From NCBI GenBank assembly GCA_025360965.1, contig JANYBC010000021.1, positions 22,199 to 86,198 of the forward strand: 64,000 nucleotides of DNA, given 5' to 3'. This document shows positions 35,666 to 46,671 of this stretch, piece by piece. A program made the position numbers and the translations under genes. How positions within the stretch are numbered: position 1 is the first letter of the stretch; each line of letters opens with the position of its first letter. The DNA is from Anaeromyxobacter sp. GTDB taxonomy: Bacteria > Myxococcota > Myxococcia > Myxococcales > Anaeromyxobacteraceae. The notes below the pieces were generated by a model, which did not search any database, had not been told where the DNA came from, and was given only the letters and a program-made list of their open reading frames with translations.

Positions 35666-36238
35666 GTGAGCGACCCGACGCGCCGATACGAGCGGATCGA
35701 GATTGAACTCCCGGTCCGGCTCTTCATCCCCGGGCACGACGGCCTGAAGTTCGAGGCCTACTGCACCTCCCGCAACCTCGGCCTGGGCGGCCTCTTCGTC
35801 GCCTCCAGCTTCCTGCTGCCCGAGGGGCTCGGCGTCCACGTCGAGCTCAAGCTCCCCGACAAGCTGCTGGTGGTCCGGTCCACCGTGGCCCACGCGGTCC
35901 AGCTCGAAGACGACGAGCTGGCGCCGGGCATGGGGATCGAGTTCCTCGACGTCGACGCCCACGGCCGCGAGACGCTGCTGCGCTACTTCACGCCGCAGCG
36001 CTACCAGGCCTTCTTCAAGGACTTCATCGGCGAGTTCCCCCACCTCAAGAAGGACCTCCCGCTCCCCGACGTCTCCCTGATGCTCAACCTCTGGGAGGAG
36101 TGGAAGGTGAAGCAGGAGGGCGGTCCGGCCTTCACCGCGTCGGGTGCGCCCCCGGCCACGGCGCGCCGCGCCGGTGACGCCACCGCCAGCCCGCCCCGCC
36201 ACGGGGCCCGCCCGGCCCCGCGCCGCCCCCGGCGCTGA
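35666..36238 (+). CDS. PilZ-domain protein
   Basis: RRYERIEIELPVRLFIPGHDGLKFEAYCTSRNLGLGGLFVAS; GTG start. Confidence 0.85.
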   Translation: MSDPTRRYERIEIELPVRLFIPGHDGLKFEAYCTSRNLGLGGLFVASSFLLPEGLGVHVELKLPDKLLVVRSTVAHAVQLEDDELAPGMGIEFLDVDAHGRETLLRYFTPQRYQAFFKDFIGEFPHLKKDLPLPDVSLMLNLWEEWKVKQEGGPAFTASGAPPATARRAGDATASPPRHGARPAPRRPRR

Positions 36239-44062: not shown

Positions 44063-44090
44063 GGGGCGCGGTGGTCCGCGCCTGATCGCT

Positions 44091-44117
44091 CCCGTCAGGC
44101 CGCGGCCCCGGCGCGGT
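44091..44117. repeat. Direct repeat copy 1, CCCGTCAGGCCGCGGCCCCGGCGCGGT
   Basis: Matches 44805-44831 with 2 mismatches; brackets the DUF2442/DUF4160 pair. Confidence 0.7.
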
Positions 44118-44149
44118 CCGTCGGCCATCGCTGGACGAGGCGTCCAGTC

Positions 44150-44410
44150 TCAGCCGGCGAGATCCCTCGAGGCGGGGCGCAGCCCCCAGCGCAGCACCTC
44201 CGGGTCGAGGTCGGTGCCGTTCGACCAGACGATCGTCCCAAGCTCCGGATCCACCTTCACCGACCTGAAGAAGGCGGCGTTTGCACGATGCAGCTCGAAG
44301 ACGGGACCATGCAGGAATGGGTCGAGGTCAACGGTCCTGGTCGCCCCGTCGGTGAAGCCGAGCTCCACGACAAAGCCTTCGAGGCACCTCACCGAGGCGA
44401 CGCAGACCAT
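44150..44410 (-). CDS. DUF2442-family protein
   Basis: VRCLEGFVVELGFTDGATRTVDLDPFL...FRSVKVDPELGTIVWSNGTDLDPEVL. Confidence 0.88.
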   Translation of the reverse strand: MVCVASVRCLEGFVVELGFTDGATRTVDLDPFLHGPVFELHRANAAFFRSVKVDPELGTIVWSNGTDLDPEVLRWGLRPASRDLAG

Positions 44411-44419
44411 GGCGGAAGC

Positions 44420-44719
44420 CTAGTCGAGCGGAGGGATCGATTCCAGAGGCTGCAGGTGACGAGCCCGGTCCCAGTCGGCAACCAGTTCCGGCCGGTGCAG
44501 CAAGGCCCATTCCGCGACCAGGGCCAGGGCTCGTCTCGGCAGCGAGCCGCGCAGGATCTCGAGCGTGTCGATGCGGATGGCAGCCCGGCACCCGGCGTAG
44601 GTGGCGTGGAAATGCGGCGGGAGGAGGTCCTCGTAGTACATGGAGATCACGATCCCGAAGAACGTGCTGATGCGCGGCATCCAGCGGAGCAGGGCAAGAT
44701 CGGGGCCGCGCCAAGTCAT
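44420..44719 (-). CDS. DUF4160-family protein
   Basis: MPRISTFFGIVISMYYEDLLPPHFHATYAGCRAAIRIDTLEILRGSLPRRALALVAEWALLHRPEL. Confidence 0.88.
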   Translation of the reverse strand: MTWRGPDLALLRWMPRISTFFGIVISMYYEDLLPPHFHATYAGCRAAIRIDTLEILRGSLPRRALALVAEWALLHRPELVADWDRARHLQPLESIPPLD

Positions 44720-44738
44720 CGGAAATCCTGGGTGCCCC

Positions 44739-44799
44739 CGGCCTGACCACGGCCGAACCGCGGACCATGGTCCGCCGGGCGGAACTCTCGGTCAGGCCG
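44739..44799. repeat. 61-bp nested palindromic structure
   Basis: Outer arms CGGCCTGACC/GGTCAGGCCG (44739-44748, 44790-44799) around the 16-bp perfect palindrome GCGGACCATGGTCCGC (44760-44775). Confidence 0.75.
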
Positions 44800-44804
44800 A
44801 GGCC

Positions 44805-44831
44805 CCCGTCAGGTCGCGGCCCCGGCGCGAT
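44805..44831. repeat. Direct repeat copy 2, CCCGTCAGGTCGCGGCCCCGGCGCGAT
   Basis: Second copy of the repeat at 44091-44117. Confidence 0.7.
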
Positions 44832-44998
44832 GGCGCCAGCCAAAGTCGGGCAGTCCGGGTTGGGAAGCCGGGGCAGCCTTGCTATCTTCCCGCTGCGCTC
44901 CGCCAGGGCCCGAAGCGGGCTCCCAGCGCTGGTGAACCAGCCCGCTCGAGGTCGACGGAGTGCGCCGGGACCCCATCCCGGCCGGAAAGAGACCACCG

Positions 44999-46015
44999 AT
45001 GCTGATCGTGATGAAGCAGAACGCCACCCCCGAGCAGGTCGAGGCGGTGGTGGAGCGGATCAGGTCGCTAGGCCTGACGCCCCATGCCATCCCCGGCGCC
45101 CAGCGGACCGCCATCGGCATCACCGGCAACAAGGGTGGCCTGGAGGGCTCGCCCTTCGAGGGGCTGCCCGGCGTGGGTGAGGTGCTCCGGGTCTCGCAGC
45201 CCTTCAAGCTGGTGAGCCGAGAGGTGCAGCCCGAGGACACGGTCATCGACGTGGGCGGCGTCCAGCTGGGCGGGAAGGCCATCGTGGTCATGGCCGGGCC
45301 CTGCTCGGTGGAGTCGCGCGAGCAGCTGCTGGCCGCGGCGCACGCCGTCAAGTCGGCCGGGGCGCGCTTCCTGCGCGGAGGGGCCTTCAAGCCGCGCACC
45401 AGCCCCTACGAATTCCAGGGGCTGGGCGAGGCCGGGCTGAAGCTGCTCGCCGAGGCGCGCGAGCAGACCGGCCTCAAGGTGGTCACCGAGGTGATGGATC
45501 CCGACGACCTCTCCATGTGCGTGGAGTACGCCGACGTGCTGCAGCTGGGGGCTCGCAACATGCAGAACTTCTCGCTGCTGAAGAAGCTGGGCGGCGTCAA
45601 GAAGCCCATCCTGCTGAAGCGCGGCCCGTCGGCCACCATCCGCGAGTGGCTCATGGCGGCCGAGTACGTTCTTGCCCACGGCAACAACCAGGTGGCCCTG
45701 TGCGAGCGGGGCATCCGCACCTTCGAGACCGCCACCCGCAACACCCTCGACCTCAACGCCGTGCCGGTCCTCAAGGCCCTGACCCACTTGCCGGTGGTGG
45801 TCGACCCGTCGCACGGCATCGGCATCCGGGCCCACGTGCCGGCCATGGCGCGGGCCGGCATCGCCGCCGGGGCCGACGCCATCATCGTGGAGGTCCACCC
45901 CAGGCCGGAGCAGGCGCTCAGCGACGGGCAGCAGTCGCTCACGCCCACCGAGTTCGAGGAGCTGATGCGCCAGGTGCGGATCATCGCCGGGGCCATCGGG
46001 CGGGCCATCGGCTGA
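44999..46015 (+). CDS. aroF: 3-deoxy-7-phosphoheptulonate synthase with N-terminal FeS/ACT-like regulatory domain
   Basis: [70 protein letters not shown]. Confidence 0.95.
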
Positions 46016-46016
46016 G

Positions 46017-46346
46017 TCAGGGCTGGTCGGCCTGGCTCATCCACCTCGGCACATCACGCTGGCCGTGCAGGACGCGCCAGACGTCGACGTGGTCGCTTCG
46101 CTCGACGTAGAAGACCAGCTGCGGATGGCGGGCCAGCGGCAAGCAGCGCAGGCCGGGGAGGGCCAGCTCCTGTGCGTAGCGTGGCGACCCGGTGCCGGGG
46201 TGCCGGCCGATCTGGGCGTAGGCCCTTTCCAGGGCGGCGATGAAGCCGAGGGCCGCCTTCGGCGATTTTTCGGAAAGGTACCAGGCGATGGCCTCTTCGA
46301 CGTCGTCGATGGCGCGAAGTCGGGGGACGACCGGCTTGGCCTTCAC
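46017..46346 (-). CDS. ParE/RelE-type toxin
   Basis: DDVEEAIAWYLSEKSPKAALGFIAALERAYAQIGRHPGTGSPRYAQEL...LVFYVERSDHVDVWRVLHGQRD. Confidence 0.88.
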   Translation of the reverse strand: MKAKPVVPRLRAIDDVEEAIAWYLSEKSPKAALGFIAALERAYAQIGRHPGTGSPRYAQELALPGLRCLPLARHPQLVFYVERSDHVDVWRVLHGQRDVPRWMSQADQP

Positions 46347-46594
46347 CGGGGCTGGCCGCTCCTGGCCGCGCCGCGAAGCCGCCTGCGCAGGCCCGCGAAG
46401 TAGGGCTTCCCCGCCGGGGCCGAGGGCTTCGACGACGCCCCGGCGAGCAGCAGGCCACGCAGCCGCACGCGATCCTGATCCCTGCGGATCAGCTCGCGAA
46501 GGTACTCGCTGCTGGTGCCGAAGTCGCGCTGGTCGACCTGCTCATCCACGAAGGACTTCAGCGCCTCGGGGAGGGAGATGTTCATGGTGCTCAT
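46343..46594 (-). CDS. ParD-type antitoxin
   Basis: MNISLPEALKSFVDEQVDQRDFGTSSEYLRELIRRDQDR; 4-nt overlap with the toxin ORF. Confidence 0.88.
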   Translation of the reverse strand: MSTMNISLPEALKSFVDEQVDQRDFGTSSEYLRELIRRDQDRVRLRGLLLAGASSKPSAPAGKPYFAGLRRRLRGAARSGQPR

Positions 46595-46612
46595 GGCGCC
46601 AGGCTAGGCAGG

Positions 46613-46629
46613 TTGGCAAAATTTGGCAA
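46613..46629. promoter_or_regulatory. Tandem TTGGCAA repeats with 10-bp period upstream of the parDE-like operon
   Basis: TTGGCAA-aat-TTGGCAA, about 20 nt 5' of the antitoxin start. Confidence 0.5.
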
Positions 46630-46671
46630 GATGTCGGCGCCCCCCGCCGCCAGCTGGCCAGGGCCCGACCG

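Follow-up and report, generated by a model that had tools for sequence, protein, structure and literature searches.

Two adjacent minus-strand genes of the DUF4160 and DUF2442 families lie between the copies of an imperfect direct repeat and beside a nested palindrome in the window, that is, in the whole 64,000-nt stretch of an Anaeromyxobacter sp. contig analysed here. This layout raises the question of what the pair encodes, how it came to lie there, and whether the repeat and the palindrome have anything to do with it. An earlier note, made from the sequence, had proposed a cassette that entered through recombination at a repeat and was controlled by a palindromic operator, with a tentative link to toxin-antitoxin (TA) behaviour. 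In our analysis the locus very probably holds a DhiTA-type II TA module that arrived by horizontal transfer in a variable intergenic site between convergent genes, with the palindrome belonging to a separately mobile repeat linked to genes for REP-associated tyrosine transposases (RAYTs). The locus as a whole is mostly ordinary.

Table. Features of the dhiTA locus, in window coordinates.
Feature	Position	Strand	Remarks
Block absent from same-genus genome G003	44063..46671	.	dhiTA, DAHP synthase, parE, parD
Left direct-repeat copy	44088..44115	+	26/28 identical to right copy; not matched by element HMM
dhiA-like antitoxin gene (DUF2442)	44150..44410	-	86 aa, short class
dhiT-like toxin gene (DUF4160)	44420..44719	-	99 aa as called; conserved part 86 aa
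Nested palindrome, a REP/TIR-like element copy	44739..44799	+	61 bp; copies in own genome and relatives, HMM
Conserved element end CGGAACTCTCGGTCAGG	44780..44796	+	pattern matches in family genomes
Imperfect tandem of the element's end	44791..44824	+	GTCAGGCCGAGGCCCCC / GTCAGGTCGCGGCCCCG, 14/17 identical
Right direct-repeat copy	44802..44829	+	26/28 identical to left copy; two copies in genome

Gene calls and Pfam confirmed two adjacent minus-strand genes separated by 9 nt, the DUF4160 gene first (PF13711, E=3e-19) and the DUF2442 gene second (PF10387, E=8e-12). When 50 relatives are aligned, the conserved part of DUF4160 starts at Met14 of the window protein (44680); the residues ahead of it have low model confidence, and AGGA, which resembles a ribosome-binding site, precedes the ATG at 44719. 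Both genes have a lower GC3 (0.85-0.86) than glgA, TonB_C, DAHP synthase and DAO alongside (0.965-0.97).

Judged by its predicted products, the pair is a myxobacterial dhiTA, a known TA type for which tests have been published, so that a named TA type takes the place of the vague label of a DUF pair. The dhiTA locus of Dickeya dadantii is a type II toxin-antitoxin: overproduced DhiT inhibits growth in Dickeya and in E. coli, no inhibition is seen when the pair is co-expressed, and the promoter is repressed by the antitoxin or the complex, i.e. autorepression (PMC8198452). In Thermus thermophilus, the plasmid module PEM is likewise a DUF4160/DUF2442 pair and stabilises vectors; a plasmid without the DUF2442 gene gives no transformants while one without the DUF4160 gene does, and the PEM genes have no visible effect in E. 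coli (PMC12724237). The window DhiT is 55.8% identical to the PEM toxin over 86 aa, its best plasmid match, and the window DhiA is 44% identical to the PEM antitoxin over 73 residues. With the NCBIfam models, the toxin scores 67.7 bits against NF048015 toxin_DhiT (E=1e-18; equivalog cut-off 100) and the antitoxin 17.2 bits against NF048016 antoxin_DhiA (E=0.0055; cut-off 200), both below cut-offs that define the Dickeya-type equivalog and not the wider family. The predicted proteins are thus homologous to DhiT and DhiA but outside the Dickeya equivalog. The toxin gene is followed directly by the antitoxin gene, as in DhiTA systems, and the conserved toxin residues (PPHxH, Y41, G58, W71, W83, PL) are all present in the window DhiT. 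The same order is kept by relatives in the class; on viral contigs, 80 DUF4160 loci were examined and 76 adjoin a DUF2442 gene, nearly always just downstream. PADLOC gave no defence-system match. The TA-like behaviour, which had been put forward tentatively, can therefore be stated more strongly, since dhiTA has been tested experimentally in other bacteria.

By analogy with these systems, DhiT (DUF4160) would slow growth through a cellular target. The PPHxH stretch and the tryptophans form a candidate active or binding site, and the invariant PPHxH is possibly the route by which DhiT acts on its putative target. DhiA (DUF2442) would bind and neutralise DhiT, to judge from Dickeya and Thermus, and transcription as one short operon would keep the expression of toxin and antitoxin balanced. 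We rejected a mechanism for DhiT drawn from its fold; although the AlphaFold2 model is confident (pLDDT 88.5), it matched no solved structure at E <= 0.001, and a sequence search of the PDB found no convincing relative.

The model of the window DhiA resembles the N-terminal domain of 2AUW and 3K8R (Foldseek with 2AUW: probability 1.0, TM 0.69, E=0.003). The antitoxin aligns only to positions 1-68 of the 160-position NF048016 model. The 75 complete DUF2442 genes of viral loci differ in length: counted from the domain start, 47 stop by residue 113 and 28 go beyond 115, and several of the long proteins have a C-terminal tail that by eye is helix-turn-helix-like. The DhiA proteins of viral contigs (L229-L308) fall into a short class of about 70-113 aa and a long class of 135 aa or more. 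The predicted window antitoxin belongs, as the Thermus one does, to the short type and has no obvious DNA-binding domain. As it lacks a C-terminal helix-turn-helix, a palindromic operator bound by DhiA is not expected, and the absence of the HTH-bearing tail makes autorepression doubtful. Some DhiA proteins thus have a longer C-terminal tail and others do without it, and one may ask what regulates the short form.

The pair is patchily distributed: of 147 genomes in the class 12 have it, including two from the family besides the present one, and it also occurs on plasmids of many phyla and in a few phages. Mobility, which the earlier note had suggested, holds in this sense of a patchy and horizontally spread occurrence. 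Taken together, the patchy occurrence, the TA families and the lower GC3 form the pattern of a TA module that spreads horizontally. In a plasmid of Legionella lytica (L227), dhiTA is flanked by a gene for a Tn3-family transposase and a recombinase gene, which suggests that a transposon carries it there.

The palindrome proved to be as described, 61 bp long and nested, with 10-bp outer arms (CGGCCTGACC/GGTCAGGCCG) and an inner part, GCGGACCATGGTCCGC; it is one copy of a dispersed element. Further copies occur in the same genome (C213, C244 and C134, 79-88% identity) and several in the same-genus genome G001. Copies end in CGG(A/T)ACTC(T/C)CGGTCNGG, and the 17-nt conserved end is CGGWACTCYCGGTCNGG. 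Allowing any base at the variable T/C position, we found 54 exact matches of the end pattern in 9 of 24 family genomes (1-12 per positive genome), versus 4 for the reversed control, and an HMM trained on 41 copies from elsewhere recovers the window copy (E=1.3e-9). Tandem arrangement in one orientation is frequent; in G022, a stretch of about 210 bp holds five copies. A weak resemblance to the conserved end was also noted at 35703-35721 (3 mismatches; HMM E=0.07). Scanning 257 billion bases for the motif returned several matches each in Anaeromyxobacter and close relatives; about 60 scattered matches outside these look like chance, given 17 fixed bases in a search of that size. The element was rejected as a structured RNA, with no Rfam family above threshold and no average fold signal.

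The element is linked to genes for RAYT, a Y1-type transposase. Eight RAYT genes have an outward-facing copy near the 5' end, two of the eight have one at the 3' side as well, and control loci from the same genomes contain no match save the copy in the window itself. The RAYT of this genome matches NF047646 at E=6.8e-16, below the model cut-off. The same arrangement has been described for REPtrons and for terminal repeats that flank RAYT genes (PMC2817692, PMC3733652), and we infer that the RAYT moves the element. The element, with its conserved 17-nt end and variable tandem tails, was noted at 44780-44796 and at L205, L206, L209, L211-L224, L311 and L322; at L206, six variant copies (GGGAACTCTCGGACGGG) lie downstream of a RAYT gene. 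A literature search for Anaeromyxobacter and repetitive extragenic palindromes found no paper. The locus points to a RAYT-linked dispersed repeat family of Anaeromyxobacteraceae that appears to be undescribed so far.

Could the palindrome nonetheless be the dhiTA operator, bound by DhiA or by the DhiT-DhiA complex for autorepression? It begins 20 bp upstream of the called dhiT start codon, its fold is stable and more palindromic than that of most other copies (z = -2.7), and in Dickeya DhiTA represses its own promoter (PMC8198452). Against this, copies of the element stand next to RAYT genes and at places remote from any dhiTA, and G016, which holds the closest relative of the pair, has no exact copy of the motif. 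The window antitoxin, at 86 aa against the 160 positions of the NCBIfam model, also lacks the HTH-like tail that many long homologues carry. We consider this reading improbable, and the palindromic operator of the earlier note gives way to a dispersed RAYT-linked repeat next to an antitoxin without a DNA-binding tail. Under the horizontally acquired DhiTA module that we favour, the separately mobile repeat would have landed in the dhiTA leader/promoter region or replaced part of it; the palindrome would not be a dedicated operator, and the short antitoxin would have no HTH with which to bind one. Because the element starts 20 bp upstream, the promoter would have to be within the element or on its far side, except if 44680 is the true translation start, and the element probably forms part of the dhiTA leader. 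Sigma-70 promoter and terminator scans found nothing and are uninformative at this GC content. A bolder proposal, which we rate as unlikely, is that the repeat, inserted into the leader of a short-antitoxin (HTH-less) dhiTA operon, took over its control, so that a selfish repeat and not an autorepressor sets expression of the toxin and antitoxin.

The direct repeat described earlier, 27 bp with 2 mismatches (44091-44117 and 44805-44831), is real. When the whole window was simulated twelve times with an order-1 Markov model, no 26/28 repeat arose within 1 kb, while the real window has three, the other two of which, at offsets of 39 and 48 nt, look like low-complexity repeats; the direct repeat is not chance. 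Its 25-nt core, with <=3 mismatches, occurs at only these two places in the genome (genome-wide counts being taken from search tools), and in the other family genomes (24 searched) matches stay at the level of the reversed control. The search for the repeat elsewhere that had been recommended ended with the two copies at this locus. Two units of the element's tandem end (44791-44807 and 44808-44824) hold most of the right copy, and similar tandem tails stand behind other copies of the element. That the left copy might be a decayed version of the element was considered and rejected, the element HMM giving no match there.

A rival view makes the pair a self-contained cassette, integrating and excising by site-specific or homologous recombination between these 27-bp repeats. 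The repeat brackets exactly the pair and did not arise by chance, which speaks for such a cassette. But the pair and those flanking genes that were tested include no recombinase or transposase, the two copies differ at 2 of 27 positions, and part of the right copy is a dispersed element's tandem tail. No direct repeat of this kind brackets the pair in any of five relatives of the class; around the Thermus pair there is one 18/20 match, 1.4 kb apart. An empty site with a single repeat was sought in 24 family genomes and none was found; the same-genus genome G003 lacks a larger block, 2.6 kb and not 0.7 kb, with no repeat left behind. A cassette moving at the repeat, as the earlier note had it, is in our judgement unlikely to account for the locus, the repeat being unique to it.

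The comparison with G003 bears on the site itself. There, the genes for TonB_C and DAO converge, their stop codons 1 bp apart, and where they nearly abut the window has an intervening 2.6 kb that comprises dhiTA, the gene for DAHP synthase (44999-46015), parE (46017-46346) and parD (46343-46594). In genus g2 (G009, G014), glgA adjoins DAO. The site is variable, and the G003 gap is larger than the segment between the direct repeats. The block that G003 lacks has at its far end, 1.3 kb from dhiTA, a parDE-type TA pair (46017-46594, minus strand; ParE, PF05016; ParD, TIGR02606 with E=2.7e-11, just below cut-off), so that the DAHP synthase gene sits between two TA pairs. Immediately upstream of parD, the sequence TTGGCAA occurs twice and may serve as the operator of this pair. 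In G003 (98% complete) and G002 (79% complete), only distant homologues of DAHP synthase were seen. That the pair is a regulatory or metabolic partner of this DAHP synthase and no TA, as its divergent orientation and the single shared intergenic region might suggest, is highly improbable, since DAHP synthase is common across the family and the pair rare, the pair is also found on plasmids and phages, and direct TA tests have been published for Dickeya and Thermus.

Compared with known systems, the window module has the same two families as dhiTA of Dickeya dadantii 3937, in adjacent genes with the toxin gene first and the antitoxin gene second. It differs in its 86-aa antitoxin, which is without the C-terminal part covered by the 160-position NCBIfam model, and in its spacing, the window genes being 9 nt apart and those of Dickeya overlapping by 3. 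The Thermus PEM module (pTthSNM1-1d, pTthSNM3-3d) is the nearest plasmid match found for the window pair, with the same order, similar spacing and a short DhiA (91 aa); PEM is plasmid-borne beside a replication gene, whereas the window pair is chromosomal beside a dispersed repeat. NE0471 of Nitrosomonas europaea, whose PDB entry 2AUW bears the title of a putative DNA-binding protein, matches the DhiA model with its N-terminal part, but it is longer (170 aa in the PDB sequence) and the window DhiA, unlike it, stops after the DUF2442 domain. The repeat, finally, shares with REP/TIR elements and RAYT genes (REPtrons) a short dispersed element, outward-facing copies that flank RAYT genes, and tandem arrays. 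Unlike REP, it is of low copy (1-12 exact matches per positive genome), its hairpin is not conserved between copies (mean folding z of -0.14 over 42 sequences against shuffled ones), and neither the conserved end nor the window copy shows, by eye, a GTAG or CGTC tag at the hairpin foot. We accordingly name the element REP/TIR-like on the strength of its dispersal and RAYT linkage, and not of a conserved palindrome.
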